A stretch of DNA of 64,000 bases, from NCBI RefSeq assembly GCF_000687145.1, contig NZ_JMFG01000008.1, forward strand, positions 128,880 to 192,879, read 5' to 3'. Shown here in pieces: positions 2,619-9,843 of this stretch; the first letter of the stretch is position 1; the number at the start of each line of letters is the position of its first letter. The notes below the pieces were generated by a model. That model was not told the DNA's origin, searched no databases, and was given only the letters and a program-made list of their open reading frames with translations. The position numbers and the translations under genes are program-made. Source of the DNA: Thermoanaerobaculum aquaticum (GTDB taxonomy: Bacteria > Acidobacteriota > Thermoanaerobaculia > Thermoanaerobaculales > Thermoanaerobaculaceae).

Positions 2619-4577
2619 TCAACGGCTTGTGGGAATTGCCTGTCCCACCAGCGAACGTATCCTGGCTGCAGCCTTGGCCGCCAGGTCCATGTTGTGCACC
2701 CCTTTGGCCTTGAGCAAGGCGTTGTAAAGAGCCTCGGCTTCCCTGAGGGCTTCGGGATTAACCTTAGCCGCCTTGGCTTTGGCCAAAAGCACCGCCAGCT
2801 CCTGCAGCCTATTTTGGTCCTCGTTGATCCACTCCACCAGCATGGCGTCGTAGCCTTCCTCGTGGCAGCTCACGCAGGCCTTTTGGACGCTGGCTACCAG
2901 CGGTTCTTGGCGCTTCAAGTCGTGACACCCGCTGCACTCCACGCCGGCAGCAGCCATGGGGTCAGGGTCCCCCTTAAAGCCGGTACCCACCGCCTCACCC
3001 GCAGCCAAACTGGCCTGGGCTTGGTGACAACGGCTGCAGGGTTGAGCCTGCTTGGGGCTGTGATGGCAGGACATGCAGCCTTCAGCCACAATCGTGGTTT
3101 TCCCGTGTTCCTCCACACTGTGGCAGCTGTCGCAGGACAATCCAGCGCCTAAGTGGCGGCTGTGCTCAAAGCCCATGTTGGCAAACTCCAGCCGCAAAGC
3201 CAGGTGGCTGGTGGAATGGCAAACCCGGCAGTACCCGCTTTCCGAAGCCAAAATCGGCGAGCTAGGCACCGCTACCCCAGGAACCCGCCGGGCTTGCTCC
3301 AGGGCGTAGCGTAGCAGCTCCACCGCGTAGCGGACGTTGTGCTCCCCATGACCCCGGGTCACAAAGCGCACGTTGTGCCACGCCTCTTCGAGACCGCGAC
3401 GGTACTGCTGGCCCCGGGTGCCCATGCGGGTTACGTTGTTTTCCGCTTGGGCAAGAGCCCGCTCCACGAGGCCCCGCAGCTCGCCCAGCTCCCGAATCCA
3501 GTCGTCCACCATGCGGTCGTAGCCGGCGCCGTGGCAGTGGACGCAGGAAGCCCGCAGCTTCTCCGCCCCCACCCGGGGATCAGAGCCAGGTTCCGCGTGG
3601 CAGGAATCGCACGCCACCCGCGCCAAAAACATGGTGGACGGCATATCGGGAACGCCCTTGCCGCCAATGCCCACGTACATTTGCTCCTGGGCGGTGTGCT
3701 CCGGCTTGTGGCAGTTCTCACACCGCTCGCCCAACGCCGCCGCCATGGCAATCTTGCCGTGCTCCATGCGGTTGTGGCAGCGCTTGCAGTCAATGGCGTG
3801 CTTTCGCAAATGAATTTCGTGAATCCGCTGGCTGTCGCCAATGGCTTCGGCTCGCGATACGTGACAGGCCGCGCAGCGCTCCACCGGAACGTTGGCATCT
3901 CCGCGGGTGACCTCGGTGTGGCAGGTTTCGCAGCGCACACCCCGCTGCAAGTAGGTGCCATGATCAAACTGGAAGCCCTGGTGGGTGACCACCACTTTCG
4001 GCGGCCCGTGACACACCAGGCACCCCGTTACCGCCTGCCCCTGTTCGGCCCCCTTGAAGTGGCAGGTAAAGCACACCGCTTCGTCCACCCCCACGTGGGT
4101 GGCGGCCTCGGTTTCGCCCATGACAAGGCCTGAGTGACAGGAGGTGCAGTGCAAACGCTTGCCCCGGCGCATCTCACCCAGGTGGTCCTGGTGCGAAAAG
4201 TGAATGTCCTTCAAAAACACCTTATCGGTGTCGAGGTTTTGCTTTTCGTGGCAGGCCAGGCAGCGGCCGTCGGGGACTTCCGCCCGCAACTGGGTCGTAT
4301 AAATCCCCAACGCGTATTTGAGGTACGTGCGGGAAAGCACGTAGCGGTATTCGGTATGGCAGTAAACGCAAGCCACATCCCGATGGGTAGATTGCCGCCA
4401 CATTTCCACGTACGGTTTCATGATGTGGCAGGATTCGCAAAGCGAAGAGGAGGAAGAAGCAAAGAAGAACACCGCGTGAAAAACAAAAACCACAGCTGCA
4501 ATCCACGCCAGAAGCAGGAGGAGAGCGCGGCGATGCTCGATGATGCCTTCCCAAATGGCGAGCAGCAGGTGCCTCAC
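2619..4577 (-). CDS. 18-haem NapC-anchored c-type cytochrome
   Basis: 652 residues with one N-terminal membrane helix (about 17-40) and the first haem site at C47, as in NapC/NirT. There are 18 CxxCH motifs. The first twelve precede a haem-free helical module (350-449) with GHGEHN at 409-414; six more follow; a second such module with KGVHN (625-629) ends the protein. Each module is introduced by CxxCHxxGYxxxxxxW. The gene starts inside the stop of the upstream cytochrome b gene (ATGA overlap), so the two are probably co-translated and work together. Quinol oxidation via that cytochrome b, with transfer along the haem chain, is inferred. Confidence 0.93.
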
Positions 4578-5485
4578 GCCTCACCTCCTTGCCCTGAACG
4601 CGTCTTCATCAGGCGTTCGTACTCCAGGGGGTGTTCTTCCTTCATTTGTCGCTCGCTGATTTTCCCGGTAATAAAGGTTTTGTTCATGGGGAAAGAATGC
4701 GGGTTTAGGTGGACGTTGTAAAAATGCCAGATGATGATGGCCAACGTTGCCAGCAAAGCCTCATCCGAATGGGCTTCTTTGGCAATGTCGGTGACCCATT
4801 TGGGGACGTATTTCAAAAACCACTCGGTAAACCACAGGACCGTGCCAGAGCCGATCATGATGACCATGCCCCAGTACACCGCCCAGTAGTCGAACTTCTC
4901 CACGTAGCTGAATTTATCGAACTTCGGTTTGGTGTCGGTGAGGCCCAGGTAGTACTTGATCTGCTGCGCCGCGTCTTTGGCGTCCTGCCACCGGGGCAAA
5001 AGCAGTCGGAAATTCTCCCTCCCCTCACGGGTAAAGGCAATATAAAGCAAATGCCAAAAGCCAACGAAAGCCAGCAACGTAGCTGCCACCCTATGGATAA
5101 TGGGTGTGACATCGGGTCCACCCAAAAACGCGATGAGTTCTTTAGCCCAGAAGCTCTCGTGGAACTTAAGGGGAAGGCCGGTGATGATCAGGACGATCAC
5201 CGAAAGCGCCATGAGCCCATGCTGCAAACGCACGTTTAAGGAAAGCCGTTCGAAGAACTCCCCTTCCTCCTCCATTGGGGCGGCTTGGGCTTGAACCGCA
5301 GCCTTTTTCTCGGTCTTTTTTTTATGCCAGTAAAGCTCGCGGCGCACCCAGGTGGAAAAGCGCTTCTCCACCTCTGGTTCAAGCTTGGCGGCAAGCTTTT
5401 GCGCTTCCTCAAGCTCAAGCTTGTGAACCTGAATAAGTTCCTCAACGATGGCTTGCTTCAAGGCGGCTTTGGGTTTTTCAGTCAT
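4574..5485 (-). CDS. Cytochrome b-type membrane subunit with charged N-terminal extension
   Basis: 303 residues from ATG 5485, which overlaps the stop of the 9-haem gene by 8 bp; the longer open frame to 5683 is only read-through in that gene. The first ~85 residues are a charged helical cytoplasmic extension rich in Lys/Glu. About four membrane helices follow, with His residues placed like the b-haem ligands of FdnI/HydC-type cytochromes ([28 protein letters not shown]). The C-terminal stretch [13 protein letters not shown]...EHPLEY recurs in the other two b subunits here. Likely quinone-reactive anchor for the 9-haem or 18-haem partner. Confidence 0.85.
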
Positions 5486-6542
5486 GGGCCGTCCTCTTCC
5501 TGAGCTTGGCTCGGAGGTCCAGGAGAATATGCAGGAACAGCGCTGCCAGCGTGCCCGCGGTAAGGTACTTGAAGAACAGCGCCACCCAGTACACAACGCC
5601 TGCATCTCTCTGGCTCGGATCAATGTGAAAACGACCGCGAGCGTAGTTGACGTTGGCGCCGGGGTGGCAGCCTGCCTTGCCACAGGTTTTGGGGATGTTT
5701 TCCGGGTTCACCGAAGAAGCCGGATCAGACGGTGGCAAAACGGCGTGGGACGTATGACACGAGGCGCAGTTGGCCACCTTTACCGACCCCAACTCATTGG
5801 CAATTCCGTGGAAAGAGTGCTTAAAGGTCTTCACCGGGTTCACGGGAATTTCGTACTTCCGGTTGAACTCCAAAGACCCGTGGCAACGCCCGCAGGTTTC
5901 GGGAATATGGGAGGCAGAAATTTCTGAGGCCTTTTCTTTTTTGGGGAGGATCTGGTGCTCACCGTGGCAGTCGGTGCAGGAAGGGGCGTCCAAGTTTTGC
6001 TTGAGAAGGAGCGCTTGGCCGTGAACCGACCGGCGGTAGACGTCGAGCACTCCCTCATGGCAACGCCCGCAAGTCAACGGCACATGGCTTTTGTATACCT
6101 TTGAATTGGGAGCCTTCGCCTTCTGCACGTCGTGACTGCCGTGGCAGTCCTGACAGAGAGGTGCTTTGGGGTTGCCCGCCCGCTGCAAACGCCCGTGCAC
6201 CGACTCCACGTAGCCCTGGTAGTTCACGTCCTCAGGTGCGCCCACCGGGTTGCCGGGAAAGTGACAGCGCTGGCACCTGACCTTTTCCAGCCGTGGAGGG
6301 TGGGGAATAGCGGTGATATCGGCGTGGCAGTCCAAGCAGTGCCACTTGGCGTGAACCGACTGGGCAAGCTCGCGCTCGTCCACAAACAGCGCTCGTACCG
6401 AGCCGTCCGGCTGCACCTTCTTGAACTCACGCCTACCGTGACAGATGCTGCACTGGCGAACTTCTGAACCCGTTTGCTGGGCCCCCGCCGCCACTGCCAA
6501 TGCGCAACCAAGCATCCACCAACCAACCCACCGCCTCATCAT
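5478..6542 (-). CDS. 9-haem cytochrome c with C-terminal membrane anchor
   Basis: 354 residues from ATG 6542, which overlaps the upstream stop as ATGA (ATG 6539 is the alternative). A signal peptide ends near AAGAQQ. Eight CxxCH motifs and one CX4CH (CGKAGCH) give nine haem sites. A single membrane helix close to the C-terminus ([18 protein letters not shown]) with a basic tail keeps the haem domain on the periplasmic face. It has the same design as the 11-haem protein at 8204 and is flanked by cytochrome b genes, which points to a quinone:cytochrome c oxidoreductase module. Confidence 0.9.
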
Positions 6543-7243
6543 TCCTCCACCGGTGGCTCGTCGCCAAAAAGCGCCCGGTACTCCGCCCGATGGTCGCGCC
6601 AAAGCTTTTCTGCCGTGATTTTTCCGGTCAAAAAGGTTCGGGACATGGGGAAGTTTCCCGGACTGAAGTGAACGATGTAAATGTGCCAGACAAAGAGCAC
6701 CAAAAACAGCAAAAGCCCTTCGTAACCGTGAATGACCGCGGTGATGTCGAAAAACCATTTAGGAAGCACCGCCATGGCCTCGGTGTGAAACCAAAGCAAA
6801 AGCCCCGTGAGGATCATCAAAAGCGAGCCCAAACCGGCTCCCCAGTACTGGAGCTTTTGCAGCGGGGTAAATCGGCCAAACTCCGGGAGTTCCTGCTGCT
6901 TTCCACGGTAATAGCGCAGCATACCTATCACGCCCTGGATGTCAGCCCCTCGCGGCACCATGGCCCGCAGTTGCTCATTCCCCCTTGGGGAAAACAAAAC
7001 GTAGCCGAAGTGCCACAAGGTCAACGCCATCAAAATCACGGCAAAAACCCGATGCAAAATGCCCCGGGATTCCATGCCGCCTTCTAGCGCCACGAGCACC
7101 TTCCCCACCCAGGTCCCATGGGCAAAGAGGGCCAGCCCGGTGAGCGCCAGGCCCAAAAGCGTCACCATCAACACCCAATGCTGGACAAGCTCTACCTTCG
7201 TAAACCGGATCACTTCCTGACCCTTTTTCGGTGGTGTGGTCAT
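6539..7243 (-). CDS. Cytochrome b561/FdnI-like membrane subunit
   Basis: 234 residues from ATG 7243 (MTTPPKKG), preceded by GGCGGAGG at a good distance; the longer frame to 7267 runs into the small upstream gene. Four hydrophobic helices carry candidate haem-ligand His residues (VQHWVLM, ILHRVFA, LWHFGYV, VIHGYEG, VWHIYIVHF). The tail FPMSRTFLTGKIT matches the other b subunits. It starts one base after the 54-residue gene and overlaps the 9-haem gene by 4 bp, so it probably anchors that protein and exchanges electrons with the quinone pool. Confidence 0.86.
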   Translation of the reverse strand: MTTPPKKGQEVIRFTKVELVQHWVLMVTLLGLALTGLALFAHGTWVGKVLVALEGGMESRGILHRVFAVILMALTLWHFGYVLFSPRGNEQLRAMVPRGADIQGVIGMLRYYRGKQQELPEFGRFTPLQKLQYWGAGLGSLLMILTGLLLWFHTEAMAVLPKWFFDITAVIHGYEGLLLFLVLFVWHIYIVHFSPGNFPMSRTFLTGKITAEKLWRDHRAEYRALFGDEPPVEE

Positions 7244-7244
7244 G

Positions 7245-7409
7245 TCAAGGCCTCCGCCGGCTGCCAATTTGCTCCACGATCACGTAAAAAAGCATCCCCG
7301 CAATTAAAAGCCCAAGAAAAATTCGGACGGCAAGCCGAAGCCCACGGGGTAACAGGGGCAGGGTTTCTTCTACCTGTGCCACGCTGGCCAAAAGAGCCTG
7401 CATCCTCAT
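7245..7409 (-). CDS. Small single-helix membrane protein of the cytochrome operon
   Basis: A 54-residue frame lying between two cytochrome b genes and easy to overlook. ATG 7409 follows GGAGG at 6 bases; a second in-frame ATG is at 7403. The protein has a soluble N-terminus (QALLASVAQVEETLPLL), one strongly hydrophobic segment (RIFLGLLIAGMLFYVIV) and a basic tail ending SRRRP. It starts 15 bp after the upstream stop and ends one base before the next ATG. Size, topology and tight packing resemble small accessory subunits of respiratory complexes; no family was recognised and its role is inferred from position. Confidence 0.72.
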   Translation of the reverse strand: MRMQALLASVAQVEETLPLLPRGLRLAVRIFLGLLIAGMLFYVIVEQIGSRRRP

Positions 7410-7424
7410 GTTGCCTCCATAGGA

Positions 7425-8207
7425 TCAAAGCAAACCGGGGGACCAACGCATCCACCACAAAAGCCACAGGCTCCCCAAAACAAATAAGGCTGTGACCACA
7501 ATGAAAACCAGCACCCTCGCCAGCGCTGGCGGCTCCGGTTTTGGCACTTCCCCTCGGCGGATTTGCTCCAGCTCCAGCGGGTGTTCCTCGGCGTAAAGCT
7601 CTTCTTCCAAGTAACCGGTGAACATGGACCTGTTGAAATGCCGCAGGTGCACAAAATAGCTGTGCCACGTAAGAATGGACAACACCGCGAGAATAGCCTC
7701 CCCACCGTGGGCGGTTTTGGCGGCAATCACGCCTTGGCCGGTGATGACCTCCGCCCAACGGATGGGGTAAAGCAGCATGAGACCGGTGCCCACCATCAAC
7801 ACGGTCCCCCAAATAAGCGCCAGGTACTCGATTTTTTCCGCAAAGGTGTAGCGCTCCATACGGGGAGGCTCGGCAACCAACCCCAGGTTGTAGCGCACCT
7901 GCTGGAGGAAATCCTGGATATCTTTGAGCCGTGGAAGCATTGTGGTGGGATAGCGCCGGACCATGTGCAACCACAGGAGCTCCAAAAGGTGCACCACCAG
8001 CTGGATCGCCATGATGGTGCCGCAGAGGTGATGGAGCCAGCGGGCCCGTTCAACGCTGCCAAAGATGAGGATGAGACCCTTAGCCCAAGCTTGCTCCGGG
8101 TACTTTTGCGGCAGCCCGGTCAAGGCCAAGAGCGTAAAGCACACCACCATGATCGCGTGGCTCACCACTTGCCATGTGGAAAACCTGCGGATCCGTCCCG
8201 GGTTCAT
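7425..8207 (-). CDS. Cytochrome b-type membrane subunit
   Basis: 260 residues from ATG 8207, overlapping the 11-haem stop as ATGA; ten extra residues in the open frame are read-through. Helices with paired His (VVSHAIM, WLHHLCGTIMA, VVHLLELL, LTWHSYFVH) match the diheme b cytochromes of formate dehydrogenase and Ni,Fe-hydrogenase. An added hydrophobic segment at the C-terminus (VLVFIVVTALFVLGSLWLL) is absent from the two sister b subunits. The conserved MFTGYLEEE...EEHPLE tail is kept. Probably the quinone-side partner of the 11-haem protein. Confidence 0.86.
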   Translation of the reverse strand: MNPGRIRRFSTWQVVSHAIMVVCFTLLALTGLPQKYPEQAWAKGLILIFGSVERARWLHHLCGTIMAIQLVVHLLELLWLHMVRRYPTTMLPRLKDIQDFLQQVRYNLGLVAEPPRMERYTFAEKIEYLALIWGTVLMVGTGLMLLYPIRWAEVITGQGVIAAKTAHGGEAILAVLSILTWHSYFVHLRHFNRSMFTGYLEEELYAEEHPLELEQIRRGEVPKPEPPALARVLVFIVVTALFVLGSLWLLWWMRWSPGLL

Positions 8208-9424
8208 TGTGGCCTCCGCTGCCGACGCCGGGCCCACACATCAAGGGCAATGTAGGCCAGGAAAAACCCAACCGTTGACGGGATTACCACTTGGTAAAAC
8301 AGCCGCACGTAGTAAATCAGCGGGTAACGCTCCCGATCCGGTACGTAGTGCGCCGTCCACGCCGACAAAAACTTCTTGCTGGCCCGCGGATGACAGACCT
8401 GACAGCGCTTGAGGAGGCGCTCCTCCACCTTTTCGGTTCCCAGCTTTCGCACCGATTCCACATCATGATAGCCGTGACAGTCATAGCAGACGGCCTTATT
8501 CAAAGGTTGATCGGGGCTGGTGGCGACGAAAAGCTCAGCCGTGGTCCCGTGAAAATCGGCAACGTAGGTATCAAAAACCTCGGCGCGCAGCCCGTATTTG
8601 CCGGCAACCTTGGGGTCGGCGTGGCAACGGGCGCACATTTCCGGCGAAACGTTGCGAAAACGCGGCAAACGCGGGTCCAAAGTGGCGTGGGCGGCATGGC
8701 AATCGGTGCAGGTTGGAACGTCCGCGTTCCCCGCGCTTAAGCTCCGTCCGTGCACCGAGGCTAGGTAAACCTCCGTAACCCGCCGGTGGCAGGTCCCGCA
8801 CGTTGTGGGCACGCTTAGGCGATGCACGTGAGAAGCTGGGTCCTTGGCCGGCAAGATGTCGTGGCCGCCGTGGCAAGAGACGCAGGTGGCCGCGAGATCA
8901 AGCCCCGCCAGCTGCACCCCGTGACCGTGCACGCCCACCAGGTACTCCTGCTTGTTGTGGCAGTGAAGGCAGGTGCCGGCCACGTTGGCCGGCGCCAGGC
9001 TCGATTTGGGATCCTGGCTCGGCCGGACATCGTGAGCGCCATGACAGTGCCAGCACTGGGCGCGGAAGCTCCCCTGGCCCAAGGGGTCTTTGTGCACCGA
9101 GCGGCTCACCGCGGCGGCGGCATCCCCGTGACACCCCAGGCACGGGTTTTCCCGGCTCATGCCCTTAGGATGGGGAACTTGGGAAGCCCTGGGGTGACAG
9201 TCGAGGCAGGCCAAGGAATCGTGCACCGAATCGGGGCCCACGGCCACCACCAGCGCCGAAAGCCGCCCCGGAGCGAGGTGGGCACCCAAGCTCTCTGCGG
9301 CCGCCTGGACGTCTTCCACACTCCCGTGGCAGGAAAGGCACTCGTCCCGGGGAGCAGAGGTGGCTGCGGTAGCCACCAAAAGGCCTAAAACTGCAAACCA
9401 CCGGCGGTCGCTTCGAAGGCTCAT
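8204..9424 (-). CDS. 11-haem cytochrome c with C-terminal membrane anchor
   Basis: First gene of the cytochrome operon, 406 residues. The signal peptide (FAVLGLLVATAATSA) is followed by 11 CxxCH motifs and one C-terminal membrane helix (VVIPSTVGFFLAYIALDVW) with an Arg-rich tail, the same design as the 9-haem paralogue. Repeating SVHG and GxHD segments between haems are typical of this family. The start follows a GGAGGGGAGG ribosome site, and a good promoter lies just upstream (9446-9474). Likely accepts electrons from the adjacent cytochrome b and passes them outward. Confidence 0.91.
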   Translation of the reverse strand: MSLRSDRRWFAVLGLLVATAATSAPRDECLSCHGSVEDVQAAAESLGAHLAPGRLSALVVAVGPDSVHDSLACLDCHPRASQVPHPKGMSRENPCLGCHGDAAAAVSRSVHKDPLGQGSFRAQCWHCHGAHDVRPSQDPKSSLAPANVAGTCLHCHNKQEYLVGVHGHGVQLAGLDLAATCVSCHGGHDILPAKDPASHVHRLSVPTTCGTCHRRVTEVYLASVHGRSLSAGNADVPTCTDCHAAHATLDPRLPRFRNVSPEMCARCHADPKVAGKYGLRAEVFDTYVADFHGTTAELFVATSPDQPLNKAVCYDCHGYHDVESVRKLGTEKVEERLLKRCQVCHPRASKKFLSAWTAHYVPDRERYPLIYYVRLFYQVVIPSTVGFFLAYIALDVWARRRQRRPQ

Positions 9425-9489: not shown

Positions 9490-9843
9490 CTACTCTTCAT
9501 CGAAACTTTCACCGCTCCAGTACGCTTCACCCAAGAGCTTTTGGAGGGTTTGGCGCAACCGCGGGTGCACCTCGGGATCCCCGAGCTCCTGCGCCAGACG
9601 CTGGTACTCGGCCAAAACAGCCTCCTCCAGCTGCCGGCGGGCATCGGTGGAAAGAAAGTGCACCACGTCTTTGAAAGAGCCGTTGCGCAGCCTGCGGGAA
9701 GGCATGGCCACGTACAGCGTTCCTTCCTTGCCTTCCATGACCCTGAGATCGCCAATCAGCAGGGCGTTATCAATAACGACTTGCACAAAAGCCTTGACCC
9801 GCCCTTGGCGGTTGAGGTTAACCCGCACTTCCGTGATTTCCAT
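9490..9843 (-). CDS. spoVG: SpoVG family protein
   Basis: 117 residues that align with SpoVG over the first ~85: MEITEVRVNL, the DNALLIGDLRVMEGK segment, VAMPSRR and the HFLSTDARRQLEEAVLAEY helix. SpoVG proteins are small nucleic-acid-binding regulators. The C-terminal ~35 residues are an acidic extension of the kind that varies in the family. It follows ispE by 11 bp with an AAGGAGG site, so it is in that operon rather than the cytochrome one. In Gram-positive bacteria spoVG acts in septation and sporulation; here the target is unknown. Confidence 0.9.
   Translation of the reverse strand: MEITEVRVNLNRQGRVKAFVQVVIDNALLIGDLRVMEGKEGTLYVAMPSRRLRNGSFKDVVHFLSTDARRQLEEAVLAEYQRLAQELGDPEVHPRLRQTLQKLLGEAYWSGESFDEE

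Follow-up and report, generated by a model that had tools for sequence, protein, structure and literature searches.

The cytochrome cluster and its small open reading frame

The stretch of DNA analysed here (the window) comprises 64,000 nucleotides from Thermoanaerobaculum aquaticum. Its minus strand carries a cluster of cytochrome genes in the order cA–bA–sORF–bB–cB–bC–cC, followed by a 4-heme cytochrome and by cD (20 hemes). The subject of this study is the small frame, sORF, which lies between bA and bB. The principal features are as follows.

8204..9424, minus strand: cA, an 11-heme DmsE-like cytochrome c, whose C-terminal anchor helix is among the tails resembling the sORF
7425..8207, minus strand: bA, a PF01292 cytochrome b with an additional C-terminal helix; the ATG at 8207 is the analysts' reading and overlaps the end of cA
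7245..7409, minus strand: sORF, a 54-amino-acid single-helix membrane protein with a GGAGG ribosome site
6539..7243, minus strand: bB, a PF01292 cytochrome b and the proposed partner of the sORF
5478..6542, minus strand: cB, an 8-heme cytochrome c with a C-terminal anchor helix
4574..5485, minus strand: bC, a PF01292 cytochrome b; the start at 5485 is the analysts' reading
2619..4577, minus strand: cC, an 18-heme cytochrome c with an N-terminal helix (NrfH/NapC-like start)

The ATG frame at 7409..7245 encodes the protein MRMQALLASVAQVEETLPLLPRGLRLAVRIFLGLLIAGMLFYVIVEQIGSRRRP. The plus strand of 7245–7409 is interrupted by stops, and the coding frame is that of the minus strand. The GGAGG motif lies 4 nt 5' of the ATG. 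Fifteen base pairs (7410–7424) separate the sORF from the end of bA at 7425, and a single base pair (7244) separates it from the bB ATG at 7243. The genes on either side score over the curated PF01292 cut-off of 30.1 bits (36.5 and 66.2), as does the third cytochrome b of the cluster at 60.4 bits. An earlier sequence-only reading, which named no strand, had described a 54-residue single-helix protein with a good ribosome site, packed with 15-bp and 1-bp gaps between two cytochrome b genes; that observation is confirmed. The only relative of bB among solved structures is the gamma subunit of FDH-N (1kqf_C, E 2e-8).

Single-sequence AlphaFold2 prediction places helices at residues 3–16 and 22–50, with a mean pLDDT of 78.8 that is highest in the long helix, and the hydropathy peak is 2.41. 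In its small size and single membrane helix the product has the form of a single-helix accessory subunit. None of the five sORFs found in this study contains the CXXCH heme motif, and the protein is therefore not a cytochrome c; the head domain is absent as well. Scans of all five members against Pfam and NCBIfam (E ≤ 1) returned no credible family, and no CydX or CydS family. DUF4229, AciT and other weak matches were rejected, being far under cut-off or confined to one or two members, as was ArcB (E 1.3), the sole solved-structure match of the sORF profile. A literature search found no paper on this small protein, which does not in itself establish that the protein is unpublished.

Two further features of the cluster are recorded. 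A gene of the SpoVG family (PF04026, E 3e-26) lies directly upstream at 9490–9843 on the same strand. The number of CXXCH motifs in cB is eight in the five family genomes described below, nine in seven distant relatives (L114, L115, L117–L120 and L123), and eight in genome G005 (L026); judged by these counts, one cB heme site evidently comes and goes among relatives.

Conservation, selection and linkage to bB

The family set comprises 17 genomes. Five carry bB at an identity of at least 63% (G000, which is the window's own genome, G310, G297, G300 and G301), and in all five the sORF lies directly upstream of bB. It was found in none of the 12 remaining family genomes, which have no such bB. 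Conservation of a frame in step with enzyme genes, across these 17 genomes, is the pattern of an accessory subunit. A purine-rich stretch precedes the sORF ATG in each of the five genomes, and the four other copies are 63, 39, 39 and 37% identical to that of the window. The sequence-only reading had proposed a search for conserved short frames at the same position in relatives, with a lack of conservation counting against it; the frame is present in every family genome with bB at this identity. Searches of the order (37 genomes, E ≤ 0.001) returned the identical five and none of the other 32. Searches of the class (147 genomes) returned the same five at E < 1e-25, and the sORF was absent from the other 142. 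The next class match (E 1.3e-4) lies opposite a long frame and was rejected. The window's own genome (2,660,928 bases in 68 contigs) contains no second copy, its one other match having an E-value of 0.52, and no copies were found in plasmids.

A phylum search with the sORF profile (396 genomes) gave matches in 64 genomes at E ≤ 0.05, of which only those in G000 and G297, the two family carriers sampled, are taken as real. Eleven loci behind weak matches were inspected and taken as chance: six are antisense to one gene, and the other five fall within long frames or opposite them. The antisense matches (L145–L148, L154 and L156) recur at one conserved gene within one family of the phylum, which the analysts read as an acyl-CoA dehydrogenase gene. 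Searches for small helices can thus meet the same false positive repeatedly.

The gene order narrows the choice of partner. The sORF follows bA in the window and in G310. In G297, G300 and G301 no cA–bA pair lies ahead of it, and the sORF stands first, followed by bB–cB–bC–cC. The constant neighbour is thus bB. In these three genomes bB likely begins at a GTG with which the sORF stop overlaps; this is again the analysts' reading.

The sORF is under purifying selection. The copies of the window and G310 differ at 61 of 162 bases and retain 34 of 54 residues. The differences fall 20, 8 and 33 at the first, second and third codon positions, and dN/dS is 0.19. Not one of 20,000 neutral simulations kept 34 residues, the maximum being 29. 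Thirteen columns are invariant in the alignment of the five sORFs, including R25, R29, Y42, E46, Q47, G49, R52 and R53. The tight packing and the stop–start overlap would also suit a leader frame that couples ribosomes to bB and whose peptide is itself irrelevant, but selection here acts on the amino acids, as the substitution ratio, the invariant residues and the simulations all indicate, and a leader function is highly improbable. The sORF is a real small membrane protein gene.

The history of a close relative adds to the linkage. L033, a contig of G311, a third Thermoanaerobaculum, has lost the sORF–bB–cB–bC–cC module. DNA aligned with the window ends at window position 7422 and restarts at 2625. 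About 4.8 kb of the cluster is missing at L033:6777–7218, where some 440 bp with stubs of the sORF and cB remain. The cA–bA pair and the 20-heme cD are retained. Read in one frame, the stub aligns with the sORF at a score of 56, which none of 500 shuffles reached, and then runs into the cB piece. The sORF is thus always found with bB and was lost together with its module. A frame truncated by deletion, as in L033, is what might be expected of a chance open frame or of a decaying cytochrome c remnant, but that explanation is refuted for the five genomes, in which the frame is intact and has its ribosome site and which include four copies diverged to 37–63% identity; it is scarcely conceivable.

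Resemblance to the anchor helices of multi-heme cytochromes

The closest likeness of the sORF is to the C-terminal anchor helices, or tails, of those multi-heme cytochromes c whose genes adjoin a PF01292 cytochrome b gene. These belong to cA, to cB and to cX, the multi-heme cytochromes c with a C-terminal helix that precede bB in some relatives. The sORF profile aligned with 19 tails (14 of cA and five cX-like) at an hhalign probability of 93 and a score of 35.0 over about 33–34 columns; hhalign E-values are for single comparisons and serve for ranking only. Permuting the helix columns in 300 copies gave no score as high, the maximum being 28.5. Against the cX-like tails alone one of 300 permuted copies reached the sORF score, and against the cA tails alone five of 300. 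As controls, 42 slices were taken over helices in the adjacent proteins, none of them C-terminal anchors; they scored 16.8 or less. The cB tails were rejected as nearest relatives on account of an hhalign probability of 0.4 when compared alone; the cA/cX tail profile nevertheless reaches them.

An open test used an alignment of 17 of the 19 tails to search the 17 family genomes in all six reading frames. The 22 matches at E ≤ 0.2, assigned by position, comprise 11 cA tails, five cB tails, three linkers of c–b fusions and three sORFs. The sORFs recovered are those of G000 (0.0102), G300 (0.0803) and G310 (0.184); those of G297 and G301 were not recovered from the whole genomes at this threshold. 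In G000 only three matches occur at E ≤ 1, by position the cA tail, the cB tail and the sORF, and in G300 and G310 the profile yields the cB tail, the sORF and nothing else. In the reverse search, with the sORF profile against 6,971 frames from 30 loci, the top non-member was the cA tail of G305 (L161, E 0.11), and further tails rank among chance matches. The sORF is thus of the C-terminal-anchor sequence type, though the fit is weak for the G297 and G301 copies, and the cB tails taken alone do not match.

A spacing of charged and aromatic residues, R/K-x16-[YFH]-x3-[DE], is found in all five sORFs and, in the ungapped alignment, in 15 of 17 tails. Taken singly, the basic residue (–17) occurs in 16 of the 17 tails, the aromatic or histidine position (0) in all, and the acidic residue (+4) in 16, the two exceptions being different rows. 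Among the cytochrome c tails of L110–L115, L117–L120 and L123, those of cX (L114, L115 and L117) and cB have histidine at one helix position, where most cA tails have Y or F and the sORF has Y. Located towards the inner membrane face, this histidine could lie near heme b or a quinone site.

Short hydrophobic helices with basic tails easily resemble one another, and homology suggested by about 33 hydrophobic columns is not proof. The similarity could have arisen by convergence, the sORF having emerged independently as a small accessory subunit for bB, like CydX, and come to share one docking helix with the anchors. A small single-helix product that is under purifying selection and strictly accompanies bB suits this explanation, the stretch of anchor similarity is short, and the first 20 or so residues match nothing in the cytochromes. 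Convergence is less readily reconciled with the open test, in which three of five sORFs came next-best after true tails in whole genomes, or with the residue spacing common to the two groups; an independent origin is a possible but doubtful explanation.

The position of the gene is a second point of resemblance. Multi-heme cytochromes c precede 32 of 45 stand-alone cytochrome b frames, small-helix genes precede four, and nine are classed as other; these frames are not all independent (L034 is counted twice), one of the nine, L111, is in fact an sORF enclosed by a longer open frame, and the count serves as context only. Within the clade that contains bB (15 tips, support 99/96), the gene before bB is the sORF in five cases, cX in three (L114, L115 and L117) and a c–b fusion in two (L121 and L122). 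No anchor gene was recognized before bB in the remaining five (L116, L118, L119, L120 and L123), and not all bB-like proteins therefore need one. In the c–b fusions of the phylum a tail-like helix directly precedes the cytochrome b within one chain, which suggests that a helix encoded separately likewise binds the cytochrome b it accompanies; the fused cytochromes b belong to clades other than that of bB. Ten- or eleven-heme cytochromes c fused to a cytochrome b with an extra junction helix were observed at L118:7609–9489, L119:5949–7865, L121:5564–7564 and L124:8485–10479. Most of these four adjoin the same operon, and they are presumably CbcL-like.

Proposed role and origin of the sORF

The favoured reading, held with moderate confidence, is that the sORF product is a heme-less anchor-helix subunit, made with and packing against bB in a quinol/multi-heme-cytochrome complex. 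The earlier proposal of a small subunit of a cytochrome b complex stays the best general reading; it had suggested a pull-down with the cytochrome b subunits, and the partner would specifically be bB, not both cytochromes b. The protein is predicted to cross the membrane once, with its N-terminus outside and its arginine-rich tail inside. It would be made together with bB, which is encoded directly after it, and packed against it. Lacking heme, it cannot carry electrons. Its position would be the one that other clusters give to a multi-heme cytochrome c anchor helix or to the joining helix of a c–b fusion. Given the kinship of bB with FDH-N gamma and the helix that precedes cytochrome b in the fusions, it should form a fifth helix alongside bB, where it may complete and stabilize the helix bundle and help to dock bB to the rest of the complex (cB–bC–cC). 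A structural or docking role, by analogy with CydX and CydS in cytochrome bd, seems likeliest.

A transient function is a further alternative, in which the sORF product helps with assembly or insertion of bB or of its hemes and is not a permanent subunit. Translation is likely coupled to that of bB through the 1-bp gap or the overlap, as would suit a helper, and the observations fit a helper and a subunit alike. The anchors that the protein resembles are, however, structural and remain with their complex, and a helper is considered unlikely.

The specific precedent for a permanent subunit would be the C-terminal anchor helix itself. The sORF and the anchors of cA, cX and cB are alike in helix length, in the R/K-x16-[YFH]-x3-[DE] spacing, in the basic tail and in being encoded immediately ahead of a cytochrome b; they differ in that the sORF is a separate gene with no heme domain. 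More distant parallels exist. In FDH-N the helix of the iron-sulfur subunit packs against FdnI (gamma). PMC10924467 describes C-terminal membrane helices in the iron-sulfur subunits of Escherichia coli FDH-N and hydrogenase, within iron-sulfur/cytochrome b modules. As in the sORF, a single helix there lies beside an FdnI-type cytochrome b, but it carries an iron-sulfur domain, whereas the sORF carries nothing. The same paper names HmcD as a hydrophobic peptide of the Hmc complex. HmcD, likened here by that description and not by sequence, is also small and hydrophobic, and its operon likewise encodes a cytochrome b together with a multi-heme cytochrome c; the Hmc operon otherwise differs from the sORF cluster. 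CydX/CydS, according to PMC8951039, is a single-helix subunit required for the assembly and stability of cytochrome bd. It shares with the sORF a single helix that accompanies a b-type cytochrome; the enzyme is different, and there is no credible family match.

The gene may descend from a multi-heme cytochrome c whose entire heme domain was lost, the anchor helix surviving as a gene because bB needs a fifth helix. The case for such an 'orphan anchor' is judged to be evenly balanced.

Complexes of multi-heme cytochromes c with cytochromes b move electrons from the quinone pool to metals and other acceptors. A conserved heme-less anchor would mean that the anchor helix functions as part of the cytochrome b in such complexes, and the small protein is a possible handle for purifying one. 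Its sequence pattern could find further overlooked small subunits. The host is a hot-spring bacterium; strain MP-01 of T. aquaticum reduces Fe(III) and Mn(IV) and is in culture (PMC4056298), which makes tests possible. If the proposed origin is true, it shows that the anchor helix has a job beyond the tethering of heme.
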